Positions 27,916-38,416 of a stretch of 64,000 bases of DNA are shown piece after piece. This DNA is from Sinorhizobium alkalisoli (lineage in GTDB: Bacteria; Pseudomonadota; Alphaproteobacteria; Rhizobiales; Rhizobiaceae), in contig NZ_CP034909.1 of assembly GCF_008932245.1 (NCBI RefSeq), forward strand, positions 992,001 to 1,056,000, written 5' to 3'. The notes under the pieces are model-generated. The model saw nothing but the letters and a program-made list of their open reading frames with translations, did no database searches and was not told the origin of the DNA. A program made the translations under genes and the position numbers. Positions within the stretch are counted from its first letter, which is position 1. Each line of letters begins with the position of its first letter.

Positions 27916-28284
27916 TCTTTTGACGCAGGGTGAGGTCCGCAGTTCCGCGCAGGCCGACCAGAGCTGGATACGAGGCTGGTTCAGGCTGTCCCGACCCGTA
28001 TTCCTGTGGCGAGCATGGAAGCCGGTCATTCTCGGTAACATTTCATAGAAGGTTCGGCGGCGCGAAAATCGCCGTGCTGGAGCCGTTGCGGCAGGGTTTC
28101 CTTCCGCGCGCGAAGCGGTTATGAACGCTGGACTTAAGGCTCCCGCCGGCGCCGACGGGAGACCAAGGAGCCGAATTCAATGCAGCTCCTCCATTGCCCG
28201 GAACGGGCAATGGAGGGGTGAAGCCTAACGTCATTTCGCCCGAATCGCTCGATAGTGCGAGATTCGCCAGTTCTGGAACCCGTC
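27916..28284 (+). promoter_or_regulatory. Long structured proS leader with a possible leader peptide
   Basis: Three strong hairpins are visible: CTCCCG/CGGGAG (28140-28161), a 15-bp stem with loop GAA whose core is CTCCATTGCCCG/CGGGCAATGGAG (28186-28218), and CGAATCGCTCG/CGAGATTCG (28241-28266). Between the first two, AAGGAG (28165) precedes ATG 28180, opening a 13-codon frame that runs through the big stem and stops at 28221; its seventh codon is proline CCG. This could be a leader peptide whose translation controls folding. No T-run follows the stems, so any control would be translational rather than classical attenuation. Confidence 0.4.
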
Positions 28285-29613
28285 ATGCGCCTTTCCCGTT
28301 ATTTCATGCCCATTCTGAAGGAAAATCCGAAGGAAGCCGAGATCGTTTCCCATCGTCTGATGCTGAGGACGGGCATGATCCGCCAGCAGTCGGCGGGCAT
28401 CTACAGCTGGCTGCCGCTCGGCAAGCGCGTGCTCGATAAAGTGAACGCGATCATTCGCGAGGAGCAGAACCGTTCCGGCGCGATCGAGCTTCTGATGCCG
28501 ACCCTGCAATCTGCGGAACTCTGGCAGGAAAGCGGACGTTATGACGCCTACGGCAAGGAGATGCTGCGCATCAAGGACCGGCAGGATCGGCCGATGCTCT
28601 ACGGCCCGACGAATGAGGAGATGATCACGGACATCTTCCGTTCCTATGTGAAGTCCTATCGAAACCTGCCGCTCAACCTCTATCACATCCAGCTGAAGTT
28701 CCGTGACGAGATCCGTCCGCGCTTCGGCACCATGCGCTCGCGCGAGTTCCTGATGAAGGACGCCTACTCCTTCGATCTCGACCGGGAAGGGGCGGAACAT
28801 GCCTATAACAAGATGTTTGCCGCCTATCTGCGCACCTTCGACCGCATGGGTCTGCGCGCCATTCCGATGCGCGCCGATACGGGCCCGATCGGAGGAAACC
28901 TGAGCCATGAATTCATCATTCTTGCCGATACCGGCGAGTCGGAAGTCTTCTGCCACAAGGACTTCCTCGATTTCGGGATTCCGGGCGAGGGCACCGATTT
29001 CGATGACGCCGTCGGCCTGAAGGCGATTTTCGAGAAATGGACATCGCGCTACGCCGCCACCTCGGAAATGCACGACGAGGCCGCCTTCGACGCCATTCCG
29101 GAAGCAGAGCGCCTGTCGGCGCGCGGCATCGAAGTTGGTCACATCTTCTATTTCGGTACCAAATATTCTGAGACCATGGGCGCCAAGGTGCTCGGCCCCG
29201 ACGGCAAGGAGCACTTGGTGCACATGGGCTCCTATGGCATCGGTCCCACCCGTCTGGTGCCGGCGATCATCGAAGCCTCGCATGATGACAACGGCATCAT
29301 CTGGCCGAAGTCGGTCGCACCGTTCGACGTCGTCGTCATCAACATGAAAACGGGCGATGATGCTTGCGATGCCGCCTGCGCCACGCTCTACTCGGACCTC
29401 GGCAATGCCGGGCTCGATGTGCTTCTGGACGATACCGACGATCGTGCCGGGGCAAAATTCGCCACCGCCGATCTCATCGGCGTTCCCGTGCAGATCGTCG
29501 TCGGGCCGCGTTCGATCGCCAATGGCGAGGTCGAGGTCAAGGACCGAAAGACCGGCGCGCGCGAGACGATGACGGTCGGGGCCGCGATCAACAAGCTGAT
29601 CGCGTTGAAATAA
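28285..29613 (+). CDS. proS: Proline--tRNA ligase
   Basis: A class II aminoacyl-tRNA synthetase that charges tRNA-Pro. The 442-residue product has motif 2 in [20 protein letters not shown] and motif 3 in [14 protein letters not shown], followed by a C-terminal anticodon-binding domain. It is much shorter than the E. coli type because the editing insertion is largely absent, as known for alphaproteobacterial enzymes. ATG 28285 (MRLSRYFMP) is the family start; ten upstream codons are ignored. Confidence 0.96.
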
Positions 29614-29631
29614 GAGGCAAAGGGATCGAAT

Positions 29632-30942
29632 ATGACCGCGGCGACGGAAGAGCAAGCAAAGGCAGCCGCCCCGGCGGGCGTGTCTTCCAGCCGTCCCTTC
29701 TCCGCCTTCGAGCGCATGGTGGCCTGGCGCTACCTGCGCTCGCGGCGGAAGGAAGCCTTCATCTCGGTCATCGCCGGCTTTTCCTTCGTCGGCATCATGC
29801 TTGGCGTGGCGACGCTGATCATCGTGATGGCGGTGATGAACGGTTTCCGCACCGAACTCATCTCGCGCATTCTCGGCATGAACGGCCATGTCATCGTGCA
29901 GCCGCTCGATGGTCCGCTCACCAATTATGCCGATCTTGCGGCGCGGTTCTCCGCCATTCCGGGCGTGACCATGGCGATCCCGACGGTTGAAGGCCAGGTG
30001 CTTGCCCAGGGCGTCGGCGACGCTTCGACGGGTGCGCTGGTTCGCGGCGTGAGGGCGGACGATCTTTCGAAGTTGAAGTCGATATCGAACCATATTGTTT
30101 CCGGCGATCTCGTCGGTTTCGCGTCGGGCAGCGGCATCGCCATCGGATCGCGCATGGCTGACCAGTTGGGCGTTAGCGTCGGTGGCACGGTCACGCTGAC
30201 CTCGCCGAACGGCGACGTGACTCCGCTCGGGATGAACCCGCGCATCAAAGCCTATACCGTTTCGGCGATATTCGAGATCGGCATGTCAGAATATGATGCG
30301 ACGATCATCTTCATGCCGCTCGAGGAAGCGCAGCTCTATTTCAATGCGGAAGGGCTCGTTCAATCGATCGAGCTCTTCGTCGAGCATCCCGATGCCGTCG
30401 ACGACCTGCGCCAGCCGATCGAGGAGGCCGCCGGCCGGCAGGTCTTCATCACCGATTGGCGGGATCGCAACAAGACCTTCTTCTCCGCGCTCGCCGTCGA
30501 GCGCAACGTGATGTTCATGATCCTGACGCTGATCGTTCTGGTTGCGGCGTTGAACATCGTCTCGGGTCTGATCATGCTGGTCAAGGACAAGGGCAGCGAC
30601 ATCGCCATCCTGCGCACCATGGGCGCGACTTCGGGCTCGGTCATGCGGATTTTCTTCATGACCGGCGCCGCGATCGGCGTAGCCGGGACGGTGGCCGGCG
30701 TCGCGCTTGGCGTGGTCGTCTGCCTGAACATCGAATCGATCCGCCAGTTCTTCTCCTGGCTGTCCGGCGCCACACTCTTCGATCCGGAGCTCTATTTCCT
30801 GAGCCAATTGCCGGCAGACATGAATGCCGACGAAACCATCGCCGTCGTCGTCATGGCGCTGGCGCTCTCCTTCCTTGCGACGATCTTTCCGGCCTGGCGC
30901 GCCTCGCGCCTCGATCCGGTGCAGGCCCTGCGGTACGAATAA
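29632..30942 (+). CDS. lolC: Lipoprotein-releasing ABC transporter permease (LolC/LolE family)
   Basis: This inner-membrane permease works with LolD to release lipoproteins for transfer to the outer membrane. The 436-residue product has one N-terminal helix (residues about 42-65), a large periplasmic domain, and three C-terminal helices in an FtsX-like domain ([20 protein letters not shown]). Alphaproteobacteria generally have one permease in place of LolC plus LolE, so the C/E assignment is nominal. It starts at ATG 29632, 18 bp after proS, with AAGGGA upstream. Confidence 0.92.
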
Positions 30943-30959
30943 CAAGGACAACAACCGGA

Positions 30960-31646
30960 ATGAATGCGCGCGTGGCACTGCATCTCTCGGCCGTCGAGCG
31001 GCACTATGGCGAGGGCGATACCTTCCTGCCGATCCTCAAGGGCGTCGACCTGATCTTGCGGCGCGGTGAGACCGTGGCACTGGTTGCGCCATCCGGCACA
31101 GGGAAGTCGACGCTCCTGCACATTGCGGGGCTTCTCGAACATCCGGACGGCGGCGATGTCATCGTGAATGGCAAGGCTTGCAATGGCCTTAGCGACGATC
31201 GGCGCACCGCGATCCGCCGCAACGAGATCGGCTTCGTCTACCAGTTCCACCATCTCCTGCCGGAATTCTCGGCGCTGGAGAACATCATGATGCCGCAGCT
31301 GATCGCCGGCCTTCCGAAGGCGGAGGCGGCGGAGCGGGCAAGTGCGCTACTCGACTATATGCGCATCGGGCATCGCGCTTCCCACCGCCCGGCGGAGCTT
31401 TCCGGCGGCGAGCAGCAGCGCGTCGCGATCGCGCGCGCGGTCGCCAATGCGCCGCTCATTCTGCTGGCCGACGAGCCGACCGGCAATCTCGATCCCGAGA
31501 CGGCCGGCTATGTGTTCGAGGCGTTGGAGGCGCTGGCCCGCCAATCCGGTCTTGCGGCGCTGATCGCCACGCACAATCATGAACTTGCCTCGCTCATGGA
31601 TCGCCGCGTCACGATCGAGGACGGCAAGATCGTCGAACTGGAATAG
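30960..31646 (+). CDS. lolD: Lipoprotein-releasing ABC transporter ATPase
   Basis: LolD is the cytoplasmic ATPase that powers lipoprotein release. The 228-residue product has Walker [10 protein letters not shown] (an Ala replaces the usual first Gly), the signature [15 protein letters not shown] and Walker [17 protein letters not shown] 30960 follows AAGGA, 17 bp after the permease gene; the frame open upstream inside the permease is a shadow. Confidence 0.95.
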
Positions 31647-31649
31647 CGG

Positions 31650-31692
31650 CTACAGCGCCGCGCGTCCTTTCAGACGCGCAAAGCTCGCTGTA
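31650..31692. repeat. RIME-like palindromic repeat, copy 3 (half element)
   Basis: CTACAGCGCC, GCGCGTC/GACGCGC with a CTTTCA centre, then GCTGTA. It begins three bases after the lolD stop and may end that transcript. Confidence 0.75.
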
Positions 31693-31983
31693 ACTCTTGG
31701 ATCTGCGCATCGAGCTTTCCGAAAGTCGGGTGCGACGCCGCGCGCCAGCCGGGCAAACATTCCGCTTCGCTTGAGCCAACAGAATTGTTTCCATTTAACC
31801 CGGAAAGGCTCTAGGCGCATGCGGTGCCGCCGAAACGTTTCCGGATATGGTTGTCTTTGGTGTGATCGAGCGGCTTCGCTCTGGAGAGATTGCCTCCGGA
31901 CCTGGAATGACTTGCACGCCGTCCGGTTGCGTTAACCATAGCCGATGAATAGCGGGCGTTTCATTCGTCCTTGCTTGACTATC
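31693..31983. other. Intergenic region upstream of the SOS box
   Basis: About 290 bp without a supported gene. A short hairpin GAGCGGCTTCGCTC lies near 31868-31881. TTGACT at 31975-31980 may be the -35 of the SOS-controlled promoter, although no convincing -10 follows at standard spacing. Confidence 0.4.
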
Positions 31984-32009
31984 GAACGAAAAAAGAACAA
32001 AAAGGGAAC
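31984..32009 (+). promoter_or_regulatory. Tandem LexA operator (overlapping SOS boxes)
   Basis: GAAC occurs three times at exact 11-bp intervals (31984, 31995, 32006), giving two overlapping perfect copies of GAAC-N7-GAAC, the LexA operator established for Rhizobiales and Rhodobacter. The array ends 22 bp before the ATG of a 28-residue protein and 239 bp before dnaE. SOS control of the first, and perhaps of dnaE, is inferred. Confidence 0.8.
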
Positions 32010-32031
32010 AATAGCGAAAAGGAGCCATGTT

Positions 32032-32118
32032 ATGACAGATTTCGTTCGTGATCTTGCTGCCTTTGCATCGATGACGCTCTTCATCGCGAGCGTTTCGATG
32101 ATCGCGCTGGGCATGTGA
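32032..32118 (+). CDS. 28-residue SOS-controlled membrane protein (SidA-like candidate)
   Basis: The frame encodes 28 residues: a short polar start (MTDFVRDLAAF) then a single hydrophobic helix to the C-terminus (ASMTLFIASVSMIALGM). AAAAGGAG ends seven bases before ATG 32032, an excellent ribosome site. The tandem LexA operator lies immediately upstream. In Caulobacter, SidA is a LexA-controlled inner-membrane peptide of about the same size that blocks division through FtsW/FtsN. No sequence identity is claimed; the proposal rests on size, topology and promoter. It is 130 bp upstream of dnaE. Confidence 0.75.
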   Translation: MTDFVRDLAAFASMTLFIASVSMIALGM

Positions 32119-32248
32119 ATCCCTCTTCCCTGGATCGCACATCAGCGGAATGGCCGGTTTAAAAAAGTCCCCGGCCCCGCTGCAAGGCTGGACAGCCGGG
32201 ACCGGAAACGGGATATGCTCCGCACCGGACAGGAATCGGAGTGCGACA

Positions 32249-35200
32249 ATGGTAAATGGCGAAGGCACTGGGCAGGACATCACGGGCGCAAAGAACCCCC
32301 AATTCGTCCATCTGCGTGTGCACTCCGCTTATTCGCTGCTCGAGGGGGCGCTGCCGCTCAAGAAGATTATCGGCAAGGCGGTTGGCGATGACCAGCCGGC
32401 AATCGGAATAGCCGACACCAACAACCTGTTTGCGGCGCTGGAATTCTCGCAGAAGGCGGCAGACGACGGATTACAGCCGATCATCGGCTGCCAGCTCTCC
32501 ATCGATATGGAGGACGAGGATGGCGAGCGGCGGGGGCATCCACATCAACTCGCGAAGCTGCCTACAATCGTCCTTATCGCCGCAACCGACGCCGGCTACG
32601 CGCGGCTCGTCGATCTCGTCAGCCGCGCCTATCTCGAAGGCGAAGGGCATCAGGCGGCGCGGATCACGCGTTCATGGCTTGCGGAGGGTGGAACGGAAGG
32701 GCTGATCGCCTTGACGGGTGCTGCCGGTGGTCCCGTCGATCTGGCGCTCAAGGCCGGCTCGCAGCCGCTTGCGGAGGCACGGCTGAAAGTGCTTCTCGCG
32801 CTTTTCGGCGATCGCCTCTATGTCGAGGTGCAACGGCAGGGCAATTACGATCGGCGTCACGAGAGCCGCATGGTGGAGCTTGCCTATTGCCACGACGTTC
32901 CGCTTGTCGCGACCAATGAGGCCTTCTTTCCTTCACCCGCCGACTACGACGCCCATGATGCCCTGATGGCGGTCGCCCATAATGCCGTCGTCTCGGATGA
33001 CAGCCGTTTCCGGCTGACGCCGGATCATTATCTGAAAAGCCGCAAGGAAATGGCGACGCTCTTCGCCGATCTACCGGAGGCGCTGGAACATACGGTCGAG
33101 ATCGCGCGACGCTGTTCATTCATGCTCAATACACGCAAACCGATTCTGCCGCGCTTTACCGGCGGCTCGGACGATCCGGAGGAAGCCGAACGCGCGGAAG
33201 CGGCGGAGTTGCGCCGGCAGGCGGAGGAGGGGCTGGATTTCCGTTTGGCCAAGCTCGGTATGGCGCCCGGCTATAGGGAAGAGGATTACCGCGAGCGGCT
33301 GGCCTTCGAGCTCAGCGTCATCGAGCGCATGAAGTTTCCGGGCTACTTCCTGATCGTTGCGGACTTCATCAAATGGGCCAAGGAGCATGACATTCCGGTT
33401 GGCCCCGGCCGTGGCTCCGGCGCCGGCTCGCTGGTCGCCTATGCGCTGACGATTACCGATGTCGATCCGATGCGCTTTTCGTTGCTGTTCGAACGCTTCC
33501 TCAATCCCGAGCGCGTGTCGATGCCGGACTTCGACATCGACTTTTGCCAGGACCGGCGCGAAGAGGTCATCCGCTACGTCCAGCGCAAATATGGACGCGA
33601 GCAGGTGGCACAGATCATCACATTCGGTTCGCTGCAGGCGCGAGCGGCGCTGCGTGACGTCGGGCGGGTGCTGGAAATGCCTTACGGGCAGGTCGACAAG
33701 ATCTGCAAGCTCGTACCGAACAACCCCGCCAATCCGACGCCGCTTTCGAAGGCGATCGAGGAGGAGCCGCGCCTGCAGGAGGAGGCGGAGAAGGAGCCGG
33801 TCGTCGCCCGCCTTCTCGACATCGCGCAAAAGATCGAGGGTCTCTATCGTCACGCCTCGACCCATGCGGCCGGTATCGTTATCGGCGATCGGCCGCTGTC
33901 GCAGCTCGTGCCGATGTACCGCGATCCGCGTTCGGACATGCCGGTCACTCAGTTCAACATGAAATGGGTTGAGCAGGCCGGTCTCGTAAAATTCGACTTT
34001 CTCGGGCTCAAGACGCTGACGGTGCTGAAGACAGCCGTCGACTTCGTCGCCAAGCGCGGCATCGAGGTTGATCTTGCGAGCATCCCGATCGACGATCCGA
34101 AGACTTACGAAATTCTCTCCCGCGGCGAAACGGTCGGCGTCTTTCAGGTGGAAAGCGCCGGCATGCGCAAGGCGCTGATCGGCATGCGCCCGGACTGCAT
34201 CGAGGACATCATTGCACTCGTCGCGCTCTACCGCCCCGGGCCGATGGAGAACATCCCGGTCTACAATGCCCGCAAGCATGGCGAGGAGGAGATCGAATCG
34301 ATTCATCCGAAGATCGATTACCTGCTCAAGGAAACCCAGGGCGTTATCGTCTATCAGGAGCAGGTGATGCAGATCGCCCAGGTGCTTTCGGGCTATTCGC
34401 TCGGCGAGGCGGACCTGCTGCGCCGCGCCATGGGCAAGAAGATCAAGGAGGAGATGGACAAGCAGCGCGCCCGCTTCGTCGAAGGCGCCGTTCAGAACGG
34501 CGTCTCCAAACCGCAGGCGGATCTGATCTTCGACCTGCTTGCGAAGTTCGCCAATTACGGCTTCAACAAGTCGCATGCGGCCGCCTATGCCATCGTCTCC
34601 TACCAGACCGCCTATATGAAGGCGCATTATCCGGTCGAATTCCTGGCAGCGTCCATGACGCTCGACATGTCGAACACGGAGAAGATCAACGATTTCCGCC
34701 AGGACGCAAAACGCCTCGGTATCGAGGTGATCTCGCCCTCGGTGCAGACGTCGTTCCGCCATTTCGAGACCGGCGACAACCGCATCTATTATGCGCTGGC
34801 GGCGATCAAGGGTGTCGGCGAGTCGGCGGTCGACCATATCGTGGAGGTTCGTGGCGACCGGCCCTTCGCAAGCCTCGAGGACTTCTGCCTCAGGATCGAT
34901 CCGAAGCTTTTGAACCGGCGCGTCTTCGAGAGCCTGATCGCCGCCGGTGCCTTTGACTGCTTCGGTCATGATCGGGCCGAGCTCATCGGCGGGCTCGACC
35001 GCATCCTCGGCTTTGCGCAGCGCGCCCAGGAAAACAAGGTGAGCGGGCAGAGCGACATGTTCGGCGCAGGCGCTGCGACGGGCCCCGAAAAGATCGTGCT
35101 GCCGCCCTACACGCCCTGGCTCGCCTCGGAGAAGCTGCACCGCGAATTCCAGGTGCTCGGCTTCTATCTCTCGGCGCACCCGCTCGATACCTACGCAAAG

Positions 35201-35743
35201 CTGCTCCAGAAGATGCGGGTGCAGGCATTCGGCGATTTCGCCGCGGCGGTAAAAAAGGGCGCCACCGCCGGCCGGCTCGCCGGGACGGTCACATCGAAAC
35301 AGGAACGCAAGACGCGCACCGGCAACAAGATGGGCATTGTTGCCTTTTCCGACGCCTCCGGCCAGTTCGAGGCGGTTCTCTTTTCGGAGACGCTGCACCA
35401 GAACCGCGATTTGCTGGAACCGGGCAAATCGATGGTGATGACGGTGGATGCCGACGAGCGCCCGGAAGGCATCGGTCTTCGCATAAGAACGCTCCGTTCG
35501 CTAGAGGAGGAATCGCTGCAGATGCAAAAGGCGCTGCGCGTCTATGTGCGCGATTCCGGCCCCTTGCGCTCGATTGCACCCCACCTCAACACGAAGGGCG
35601 ACGGCCTGGTTTCCTTCATCCTCATCAAGGACGACGGCCAGCGGGAAATCGAGGTCGAACTTGGCGAGAAATACCGGATATCGCCGGAAATCGCCGCGGC
35701 GCTGCGCTCGGCACCCGGCGTTGTTGACGTCGAACTGGTTTGA
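32249..35743 (+). CDS. dnaE: DNA polymerase III subunit alpha
   Basis: This is the replicative polymerase catalytic subunit. The 1164-residue product begins with a PHP domain (FVHLRVHSAYSLLEGALPLK), then the C-family polymerase core with catalytic aspartates in SMPDFDIDFCQDRREEVIRY and the GPGRGSGAGSLVAYAL loop, a helix-hairpin-helix region, and a C-terminal OB fold (residues about 1000-1080). The length fits replicative DnaE rather than the shorter error-prone DnaE2. ATG 32249 has GGAG upstream; the 33-codon extension to 32150 has a Pro/Gly-rich composition and no ribosome site. Confidence 0.96.
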   Translation: MVNGEGTGQDITGAKNPQFVHLRVHSAYSLLEGALPLKKIIGKAVGDDQPAIGIADTNNLFAALEFSQKAADDGLQPIIGCQLSIDMEDEDGERRGHPHQLAKLPTIVLIAATDAGYARLVDLVSRAYLEGEGHQAARITRSWLAEGGTEGLIALTGAAGGPVDLALKAGSQPLAEARLKVLLALFGDRLYVEVQRQGNYDRRHESRMVELAYCHDVPLVATNEAFFPSPADYDAHDALMAVAHNAVVSDDSRFRLTPDHYLKSRKEMATLFADLPEALEHTVEIARRCSFMLNTRKPILPRFTGGSDDPEEAERAEAAELRRQAEEGLDFRLAKLGMAPGYREEDYRERLAFELSVIERMKFPGYFLIVADFIKWAKEHDIPVGPGRGSGAGSLVAYALTITDVDPMRFSLLFERFLNPERVSMPDFDIDFCQDRREEVIRYVQRKYGREQVAQIITFGSLQARAALRDVGRVLEMPYGQVDKICKLVPNNPANPTPLSKAIEEEPRLQEEAEKEPVVARLLDIAQKIEGLYRHASTHAAGIVIGDRPLSQLVPMYRDPRSDMPVTQFNMKWVEQAGLVKFDFLGLKTLTVLKTAVDFVAKRGIEVDLASIPIDDPKTYEILSRGETVGVFQVESAGMRKALIGMRPDCIEDIIALVALYRPGPMENIPVYNARKHGEEEIESIHPKIDYLLKETQGVIVYQEQVMQIAQVLSGYSLGEADLLRRAMGKKIKEEMDKQRARFVEGAVQNGVSKPQADLIFDLLAKFANYGFNKSHAAAYAIVSYQTAYMKAHYPVEFLAASMTLDMSNTEKINDFRQDAKRLGIEVISPSVQTSFRHFETGDNRIYYALAAIKGVGESAVDHIVEVRGDRPFASLEDFCLRIDPKLLNRRVFESLIAAGAFDCFGHDRAELIGGLDRILGFAQRAQENKVSGQSDMFGAGAATGPEKIVLPPYTPWLASEKLHREFQVLGFYLSAHPLDTYAKLLQKMRVQAFGDFAAAVKKGATAGRLAGTVTSKQERKTRTGNKMGIVAFSDASGQFEAVLFSETLHQNRDLLEPGKSMVMTVDADERPEGIGLRIRTLRSLEEESLQMQKALRVYVRDSGPLRSIAPHLNTKGDGLVSFILIKDDGQREIEVELGEKYRISPEIAAALRSAPGVVDVELV

Positions 35744-35768
35744 AGCGGCCCGGACCGTGAGCCGTCGC

Positions 35769-36980
35769 TTACGGTTGCGTGATGATGATGAAATCGGTTC
35801 CTACACCGGTCTCCATGCCGCTCTCGGTATCGGAGATCGAAAGCGATGAGCCATCGGCAAGAAGGGATGCAATGCGCCGTTGCGTATCCTCCGGCACCGA
35901 GATGCGGTTGAGCGTGTGCTTCAGGGCGTTGAAATCGCTGGTGTCCGCATCGGTCGTGATCCCAAGGCGCTTTTTCGTGGCATTCGTCAGCGCATTATCC
36001 AGAGAAAGACCGAACCATTTGCCTTCTCCCGAATAGGGGTCGAGTTCCTGAAACTGCAGAAAATGCGTGCCGAGCGCCACTCCGGGCTCGGCGATGTCGA
36101 TATCGACTTCGAAGAGCGGCTGGAACGCCCGGCGTACGCGCAGGATCCCGTTCGGCGGCGTCCCGCGGCCGGCCTTGCGGAAGACCGCCTGGAGTAGCTC
36201 GGGGGTGATTTCGCCATCGGCCGGCATGCCCTCGGCCACTTGGAAGGCACGGATGGCGGCGCGTGTCGCGGGGCCGCTGTAACCGTCCGGCTCGCCGGCT
36301 TCGTGGCCGAGCGCGTTCAGGAGCATCTGCAGGTCGCGCACGCTCTCTCGCATGCCGCGCCGGGTAATCAGAATGCGAATGGGCGCCCCGTCCCGTTCGA
36401 ACGAGGGCGGTAGCGGAGATCGCTCGGCTGTCGCGACCTCAATGCTGCCGGTCGCGAGATCACCAAGAGCGGGGCGCAGGGGCACGTCGGCAAGCGGCGC
36501 CGCTGGCCTTGCCTGGTTCGGCTGGAAGAGCACGTCGCTCGAAACCCGTATGGGGGCGACCTCCCGCTCGGCTATGACCACGTGCATGCCGCGCTCGGTG
36601 ATCTGGAAGAGATCGGCGGCGAAGCGGTCCGGAAGCCGTACGCATCCGTGCGAGGCTGGATAGTGCGGCACGTGGTTCGAGCCGTGCAGGGCGATGCCCG
36701 ACCAGGTCAGCCGCTGCATGAACGGCATAGGCGCATTGGAATAGATGTTCGATTCGTGGTGCCGGCGCTTCTCCAGGATCGAAAAGATGCCTGTCGGAGT
36801 CCTGTGGTTCGCTCTGCCGGTCGACACGTTCGAGGTGGCGATCACTCGATCGCCGTCATAGACGGCGAGTGACTGCCGCTGGCGCGATATCACGATCTGC
36901 AATGGCGACTTGCCGGCTGCTGCGGCGGATGACAAAGACACGGCGAGGACGACGAGCCCTATCCCGAGAGTGGAACGCAA
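35769..36980 (-). CDS. L,D-transpeptidase (YkuD domain) with peptidoglycan-binding domain
   Basis: It probably forms 3-3 peptidoglycan crosslinks or attaches proteins to the wall in the periplasm. The 403-residue product starts with a signal peptide (STLGIGLVVLAVSLSSAAAA). The YkuD domain spans residues about 26-135 and has the catalytic motif HGSNHVPHYPASHGCVRLP. A PG_binding_1-like domain follows at about 205-255 (VRDLQMLLNALGHEAGEPDG). The start is TTG 36980 with GAGGG upstream. It is convergent with dnaE, 25 bp apart. Confidence 0.92.
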   Translation of the reverse strand: MRSTLGIGLVVLAVSLSSAAAAGKSPLQIVISRQRQSLAVYDGDRVIATSNVSTGRANHRTPTGIFSILEKRRHHESNIYSNAPMPFMQRLTWSGIALHGSNHVPHYPASHGCVRLPDRFAADLFQITERGMHVVIAEREVAPIRVSSDVLFQPNQARPAAPLADVPLRPALGDLATGSIEVATAERSPLPPSFERDGAPIRILITRRGMRESVRDLQMLLNALGHEAGEPDGYSGPATRAAIRAFQVAEGMPADGEITPELLQAVFRKAGRGTPPNGILRVRRAFQPLFEVDIDIAEPGVALGTHFLQFQELDPYSGEGKWFGLSLDNALTNATKKRLGITTDADTSDFNALKHTLNRISVPEDTQRRIASLLADGSSLSISDTESGMETGVGTDFIIITQP

Positions 36981-37102
36981 GATAAACCCTCATTTGCGAC
37001 GGTGGCGCCTGCAAACGGCATGCAAGCCGTAACACGCCAGACTTGTCGAGCGAGGCTATCCTCCAATATTTAAGGAATTGAATCGGCGCCTTCCATCACG
37101 GG

Positions 37103-38395
37103 CTATTGATCGCGGCGCCGTTGACCGAAGGTGTAGCCCGTTTCGACGCTGGTCTTGCCGAACTTGTCGCGCAGCTTGTTGATCGCCTCCTCGGCGGCCG
37201 CCCGCCGCGTTGCCAAGGGGTCCACGAGATCCGGCGGATCGGCGTGAACGGGATCGCAAAGATCGCTGACGCCGATGCCGATCAGCCTGTATCTCGTCCC
37301 GTCGAGTTCCCGCTCGAGCAGTTGCAGGCCGATGCGGAAAATGCGGTCGGCAAGGCGGGTTGGGCTCTCCAGCCGCCGGTTGCGCGTACGGCTCTTGAAG
37401 TCCGCCGTCTTCAATTTCAGGACGACGGTCTGACCGGCGAGTTCGGATTTGCGCAGCCTGAGGGCTACCTGCTCGCTGAGGCGCCTGAGATGCGAGACGA
37501 GTTCCTCCGGGCGAGACAGGTCCTCGTTGAAGGTCGTTTCGGATGAAACGCTCTTGGCCTCCCCATCCGTCTCGACAATGCGTTCGTCCTGGCCGCGCGA
37601 CAGCCGGTAAAGCCTCCGGCCCATCGTGCCGTAGCGGCGCATCAGTTCTGCTTCTTCCATCGTCTGCAACTGCCCGATCGTGCGGATGCCGTCCCGCTCG
37701 AGAGTCGCGGCAAAGGCCTTGCCGACGCCCCAGATCAAGGTGACCGGACGGTCCTTCAGGAAATCCACGGCCTCGGCCTGTCCTATCACGGAGAAGCCGC
37801 GCGGCTTTTGCAGGTCGGAGGCGACCTTGGCGAGGAACTTGCAGTAGGAGAGGCCGACGGAGACGGTGATGCCGACTTCCTGCTCGATGCGCCGGGCGAA
37901 GTGGGCGAGCGTCCGGGCTGGCGCGGCGTGGTGCAGCCGCTCGGTGCCGCTCAGGTCGAGGAAAGCCTCGTCGATCGACAGCGGCTGCACGAGCGGAGTC
38001 AGGTCCAGCATCATGCTTCTGATTTCGCGCCCGACACGGGAATATTTCTCCATGTTCGGCGTGATCACCACCGCTTCGGGGCAGGCCTCGAGCGCCTTGA
38101 ACATCGGCATGGCCGAACGCACGCCATGAATGCGGGCGATGTAGCAGGCGGTCGAGACGACGCCACGTTTGCCGCCGCCGATGATGACCGGCTTGTCGGC
38201 GAGCTCTGGATTGTCGCGTTTCTCGATCGAGGCGTAGAAGGCATCGCAGTCGATATGCGCCAGAGTGAGCCGATCGAGTTCGGCGTGGTGCAGGAGACGC
38301 GGACTGCCGCAGGCGCGACACCGCCGGGCGAGGGCTGCCTGGTCTTTCAGGCAGTCTCGGCAGAGGCCGGAAATCGGTACAGCGCTGTCTCGCAT
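37103..38395 (-). CDS. dinB: DNA polymerase IV with N-terminal zinc ribbon
   Basis: A Y-family translesion polymerase. The 430-residue product has a CxxC...CxxC zinc ribbon (CRDC, CRAC; residues about 12-30) before the palm. Catalytic acidics are in [20 protein letters not shown] and [14 protein letters not shown], followed by the little-finger domain. The ATG at 38395 is preferred: the TTG at 38407 that would lengthen it by four codons overlaps the LexA operator at 38402-38416. SOS induction is therefore very likely. No beta-clamp motif was checked. Confidence 0.94.
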
Positions 38396-38401
38396 GTCTG
38401 G

Positions 38402-38416
38402 GAACAAATGTTGAAC
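38402..38416 (-). promoter_or_regulatory. LexA operator of dinB
   Basis: GAAC (38402-38405), seven bases, GAAC (38413-38416) is a perfect SOS box, six bases upstream of the dinB ATG. Its position implies that it overlaps the transcription start and that the transcript has a very short leader. Confidence 0.85.

Follow-up and report, generated by a model that had tools for sequence, protein, structure and literature searches.

A 28-residue membrane peptide encoded behind a predicted LexA operator before dnaE in Sinorhizobium alkalisoli: a probable rhizobial relative of the division inhibitor SidA

Does the very short open frame that precedes dnaE in S. alkalisoli encode an SOS-controlled inhibitor of cell division comparable to SidA of Caulobacter? 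The original paper on SidA reportedly dates from 2011. SidA is described as an SOS inhibitor of 29 aa that resides in the inner membrane and acts on FtsW, within an FtsW/I/N model (retrieved sections of PMC4211646), and has the locus tag CCNA_02004 (retrieved section of PMC10769358). Our open-access-weighted literature search found no SOS division inhibitor of rhizobia and no SidA homologue in rhizobia. Here, we analyse the frame in its surroundings, “the window” being the whole 64,000-nt stretch of DNA taken from the genome (6.13 Mb, 3 contigs). Judged from sequence comparisons, the frame is probably the rhizobial counterpart of sidA, the gene of a LexA-controlled FtsW/FtsI/FtsN inhibitor, and, as part of the same reading, one branch of an old family in the Alphaproteobacteria that is located 5' of dnaE.

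The peptide frame, its operator and its neighbours

The features of the locus are collected in Table 1. The original prediction of a strong ribosome site followed by a 28-codon hydrophobic, single-pass frame agrees with what was found: the frame opens with ATG and ends with a stop codon at 32116-32118, and the mean Kyte–Doolittle hydropathy over residues 8–28 is 1.97, which corresponds to a single hydrophobic helix in a peptide of the 28–29-aa class. The frame is open in the 5' direction as far as 31942, and a 57-codon version is possible. This extension was rejected, the open frames of the relatives being mostly of ~28–60 aa and conservation beginning at MTD; the 28-codon start is preferred because conservation and the ribosome site indicate that ATG. 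Pfam gave nothing over the cut-off for 4 peptides, and PHROGs gave no family for 9.

Table 1. Features at the dnaE locus of the window (positions in the window)
Feature	Position	Strand	Basis
lolD-like ABC ATPase, upstream neighbour	30960..31646	+	best NCBIfam TIGR02211 LolD, 255.5 bits, below cut-off 307.75
-35-like element TTGACT	31975..31980	+	sequence; 9 nt 5' of first half-site
LexA operator, three GAAC half-sites (two overlapping GAACN7GAAC)	31984..32009	+	predicted from sequence
Presumed -10 CAAAAA, weak	31998..32003	+	sequence
Ribosome site AAAAGGAG	32017..32024	+	sequence; SD-like site in 97/104 boxed relatives
28-aa single-helix membrane peptide MTDFVRDLAAFASMTLFIASVSMIALGM, SidA-superfamily homologue (probable)	32032..32118	+	ORF, profiles, selection
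dnaE, replicative DNA polymerase III alpha subunit	~32249..35743	+	NCBIfam NF004226, 1502 bits, cut-off 1002
dinB (DNA polymerase IV) ORF	37103..38407	-	over NCBIfam cut-off
Second LexA box of the window, touching dinB start	38402..38416	-	motif search

The half-sites start at 31984, 31995 and 32006, with an 11-bp period, and both perfect sites read GTTCN7GTTC on the minus strand. The triple-GAAC pattern occurs twice in the genome, one occurrence being at this locus, while the reversed control pattern has none and 0/200 Markov-1 simulated windows contain it; the tandem perfect LexA operator of the original prediction is thereby upheld. The second genomic occurrence (contig C1:465251-465276) falls within a long open frame and probably arose by chance. 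Single GAACN7GAAC sites are not rare (174 genome-wide vs 144 for the reversed control), and this count was dropped as evidence because it does not stand above its control. The TTGACT element is absent from the output of a generic promoter scan.

In the same genome, GAACN7GAAC also lies 5' of lexA, the divergent ssb/uvrA pair, imuA of the dnaE2 region and dinB. The lexA gene exceeds the TIGR00498 cut-off and has its box 63 nt 5' of the ATG; ssb and dinB likewise exceed their NCBIfam cut-offs, and the family matches of uvrA (a 302-aa fragment) and imuA fall short of the cut-offs. Among the listed genomic sites, 14 were fetched for context; several others have no recognised SOS gene next to them, in keeping with the chance rate. 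Going by its sequence, the operator before the peptide frame is the organism's own LexA site. As dinB has a GAACN7GAAC site to itself, an SOS-type gene stands on each side of dnaE within 7 kb.

The position next to dnaE, also part of the original prediction, was confirmed by a match well over the family cut-off. The likely dnaE start lies 131 nt past the peptide stop, and the gene has 85% DNA identity to that of S. meliloti; another DnaE is encoded elsewhere in the genome. The peptide frame therefore occupies the place after a lolD-like gene and before dnaE, as in sidA loci.

Conservation and coding in the rhizobial family

With the single peptide as a query, matches were obtained in 65/151 family genomes at E up to 1. 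The profile A1, built from an alignment of 36 rhizobial relatives, raised this to 124/151 at E up to 0.05 (118 of the 142 good-quality genomes) and had no match in 27/151. We read 127 places, comprising all 67 from the single-peptide search and 60 more from the profile search; 15 low-ranking profile matches (E 0.0026 to 0.048) were left out. A perfect box stands at most 120 nt upstream in 104/127 places, dnaE follows in 71 and both are present in 62, so that the expected joint conservation of frame and box is borne out. A lolD-like gene lies upstream in 73 places, and 100 have dnaE or lolD. The promoter layout recurs as well: in 70 of the 104 boxed places, the start of a TTGAC-type -35 is exactly 9 nt 5' of the box; the box-to-start-codon distance is 36–56 nt in 91 of the 104, and a third half-site (AAAC or GAAC) is present in 60. 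Some family genomes carry two or three copies of the peptide, and the extra copies examined mostly have no LexA box.

The coding character of the frame is indicated by its substitutions. Among the first 67 places, 51 ORFs of 28 aa linked to dnaE give 1275 pairs, and pN is lower than pS in 99.6% of them; across 847 less saturated pairs the values are 0.29 vs 0.61, and between the window ORF and one of its relatives pN is 0.09 and pS 0.66. Since pN is below pS, the amino-acid sequence is under purifying selection. Very short ORFs often arise by chance, and the interval 28000-37000 is overlapped by 108 ORFs of 24 aa or more; nevertheless, the idea that there is no gene here, only a chance ORF behind a LexA site, is hardly credible in view of the breadth of conservation, this selection and the boxed promoter layout, as well as of the control, in which off-target profile hits had a box in 0/84 locus-strands.

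The S. meliloti Ak57 orthologue, MADFVRDLAAFASMSLFIVSISVIALGL, lies behind three half-sites and precedes dnaE; it is missing from the PLSDB gene table, a table that is incomplete. In the retrieved sections, a Ribo-seq study of S. meliloti counts sORF25, located in the 5'-UTR of dnaE1, among the novel sORFs that are translated (Hadjeras et al. 2023, PMC10117765). Judged by position, sORF25 is probably the orthologue of the window ORF, since it lies at the very place of the Ak57 orthologue. These sections give sORF25 no function or SidA link, and they raise a uORF role for novel 5'-UTR sORFs, naming sORF25 before dnaE1 (PMC10117765).

Such a role would make our peptide a uORF or leader peptide that tunes dnaE expression, with the LexA site serving dnaE induction, and the location of the ORF directly 5' of dnaE agrees with this. 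We consider it quite improbable, however, because it is amino acids and not just codons that are conserved, and because the distance to dnaE ranges from 169 to 1500 nt. Moreover, dnaE is missing downstream in 42 boxed loci (the sequence extends for 1.5 kb or more in 41), and lolD lies upstream in 28 of these 42; when five such stretches were extended, no dnaE appeared over ~11.5–12 kb downstream in any of them, and lolD was upstream in four.

Relation to SidA and spread across Alphaproteobacteria

The curated SidA equivalog model NF033228 (cut-off 35 bits) gave no hit for the window peptide, and among the 36 rhizobial relatives it found only 2 at E up to 10, the best with 14.3 bits (E 0.031), i.e. 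below the cut-off. The relation emerges when families are compared as profiles. Aligned by hhalign with A2, an alignment of 20 members that all match NF033228, the rhizobial profile pairs residues 1–22 with 1–22 without gaps (Prob 86, E 4.7e-6). This score was reached by none of 300 column shuffles and by none of 300 more that kept head and helix apart, and it is good in the unshifted register only. M1, S13 and F17 are invariant in both alignments.

The two families differ in detail. The SidA helix core FVWM(M/V)C is absent from the window peptide, whose residues 17–22 are FIASVS, and at positions 3, 6 and 7 it has D3, R6 and D7 vs mostly R3, R6 and E/D7 in SidA. The differing charged head means that the membrane topology may differ from that of SidA. 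The C-terminal half of the helix is unlike SidA, and beyond residue 22 the profiles no longer match; together with the unipolar growth of Rhizobiales (retrieved section of PMC9022086), this would suit a SidA-derived peptide that blocks a target other than septation, e.g. the polar elongation machinery of rhizobia. We regard such a shift of target as highly improbable, since the residues conserved in both families sit in the matching half and there is no pointer to another target.

The resemblance extends to the gene neighbourhood. NF033228 was over its cut-off in 1/14 control genomes, recognises Caulobacter vibrioides as well, and in a search of the Caulobacter family was over the cut-off in 61/99 genomes. 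In 28 of 30 sidA loci taken from this family dnaE lies 3' of the peptide, and 21 of the 28 have a perfect box; in the other two, at contig ends, dnaE is present within the stretch. A scan of named genomes with A2 (Caulobacter, Phenylobacterium, Brevundimonas and unclassified relatives) gave 80 sidA loci, three C. vibrioides loci included. Here, dnaE is downstream in 79/80 and a lolD-like gene upstream in 56/80, with a perfect box in 54/80 and a perfect box or one of a set of one-change variants in 79/80.

Taken together, profile homology, a shared location 5' of dnaE, equally placed LexA operators in the promoter and purifying selection turn what was an analogy into homology. The original prediction of a SidA-type peptide stands in so far as homology and a common locus are concerned; membership of the curated family does not. 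As the NCBIfam cut-off is not reached, we file the peptide as a SidA-superfamily homologue and not as an equivalog.

How far does this family reach? Direct searches of the class were mostly noise: the rhizobial profile matched in 14/289 genomes (E up to 0.1), one of them that of the window itself, and NF033228 in 148/289 (E up to 10), without a hit over its cut-off. The best and fifth-best NF033228 hits were adjacent to dnaE and preceded by LexA boxes, and this prompted the search of the Caulobacter family. The class was also approached through dnaE itself, found at E up to 1e-60 in 117/162 genomes; setting aside the genome of the window, the upstream region was read in 69 of the remaining 116. 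A perfect box lies within 1 kb upstream of dnaE in 15/69 of these genomes, from 11 families, against a background rate of ~0.008 per kb-strand (rough binomial P 2e-17); 54/69 have no perfect box, and allowing one mismatch adds 1. All 15 boxed regions contain a hydrophobic ORF of 26–47 codons with an SD-like site, starting 44–60 nt past the box. Counted by fixed criteria, micropeptide ORFs were found in 15/15 boxed cases vs 55 of 10800 positions drawn at random from the 54 upstream regions without a box and 13 of 8400 from control loci.

An alignment of 13 of these 15 peptides (A4; a near-duplicate and a peptide without the K-D motif were omitted) matches both A1 (E 2.4e-7) and A2 (E 5.7e-6) as a profile, with 0/200 shuffles as good in each comparison. 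NCBIfam recognises 0/13 of them as SidA. By eye, the A3 alignment displays the signature hydrophobic-K/R-D/E-x-x-A-L/F-x-S. These data suggest that the SidA-type brake is old and common to bacteria well beyond Caulobacter, and the wider family is missed by annotation because of its small size and divergence. Recognised until now in the Caulobacter family only, SidA would accordingly be a wider and older gene.

Proposed action, phage relatives and known systems

Division inhibition is the likely function of the peptide on this analysis, and the following scheme can be proposed. LexA would be bound to the overlapping GAACN7GAAC operators, visible in the sequence, which cover the promoter spacer. 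Upon DNA damage, RecA would trigger LexA cleavage, and the peptide gene would be expressed, as its operator implies. The 28-aa product would be translated, as Ribo-seq has probably captured in S. meliloti, and its hydropathy predicts insertion as one helix in the inner membrane. By homology with SidA, it may keep the FtsW/FtsI/FtsN septal wall-synthesis complex inactive, so that division is delayed until repair.

A TisB/DinQ-like toxic membrane peptide under LexA control, causing membrane depolarisation and dormancy and not inhibition of the divisome, would have the same size, single helix and LexA control, and DinQ of E. coli is in fact an SOS-regulated toxic single-transmembrane peptide (retrieved section of PMC3567139). 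We consider this unlikely, since the peptide is homologous to SidA and shares its locus. No Rfam family matches over its gathering score in 31400-32500, though an antisense RNA outside the known families may be encoded there. With a defined 28-aa candidate for division inhibition and its operator, the damage checkpoint of rhizobial symbionts becomes directly testable.

Relatives of the peptide are also found in phages. Thirteen of the 127 places have no box, dnaE or lolD, and at least two of these look like chance hits. Exonuclease VIII genes are close to loci L151 and L184, and an exonuclease gene to L059. When the aligned L151 and L184 peptides served as a query, 12 IMG/VR contigs were found, of which one (L377) seems to be identical with the L151 contig. 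Downstream, each of the 12 shows an exonuclease VIII-like match, weak in some (24–30% identity), and a LexA box within 300 nt is present in 0/12. The SidA-like peptides of these phage or prophage contigs (L377-L388, L151, L184) have 32–33 aa and are of the MRDL[LI]xDIASFVAVSTFIATFAVW type.

A second type of relative occurs in Rhizobium phages B1VFA and V1VFA-S and in plasmid pRlX6, with 46–50% identity over all 28 residues (E 0.3 and 10, weak on their own), and in 2 IMG/VR contigs. All five share a 42-aa annotated ORF containing the SidA-like stretch. As pRlX6 (119 kb) and the phages match closely around this ORF, the plasmid may be a phage-plasmid. Viral contigs yielded no example of the window's own peptide subtype, and in the phage collection two of three tblastn searches were without any match.

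It is known that Kil of phage lambda blocks host division. These relatives suggest phages using the same brake, and we infer that its use there is phage-timed. On balance, we lean towards a scenario in which a SidA-type SOS brake stood before dnaE in an early alphaproteobacterial ancestor and was kept, nearly unannotated, in several lineages, while rhizobial phages acquired it, lost the LexA box and came to carry it next to their exonuclease genes; there, it may stop the host from dividing, as Kil does.

Among known systems, Caulobacter SidA (NF033228) shares with the window peptide a length of 28–29 aa, one hydrophobic helix, a LexA operator, dnaE on the 3' side and residues 1–22 aligned without gaps; the window peptide differs by its score below the curated cut-off, the missing helix core, an acidic and not basic residue 3, and an operator with three half-sites. 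Caulobacter DidA is also a small inner-membrane division inhibitor induced by DNA damage, but it has 71 aa, is SOS-independent and binds FtsN (retrieved sections of PMC4211646), whereas the window peptide has 28 aa and a LexA operator; identity with DidA was rejected on size and mode of induction. By description in partial sources, YneA of Bacillus and SosA of Staphylococcus are SOS-induced small division inhibitors with a membrane segment, YneA acting on FtsW, but they are larger and Gram-positive. TisB is a LexA-controlled single-helix peptide of E. coli. The same holds, by description, for E. coli DinQ (retrieved section of PMC3567139). DinQ and TisB differ from the window peptide, the probable rhizobial counterpart of SidA, in being membrane-active toxins with RNA regulators.
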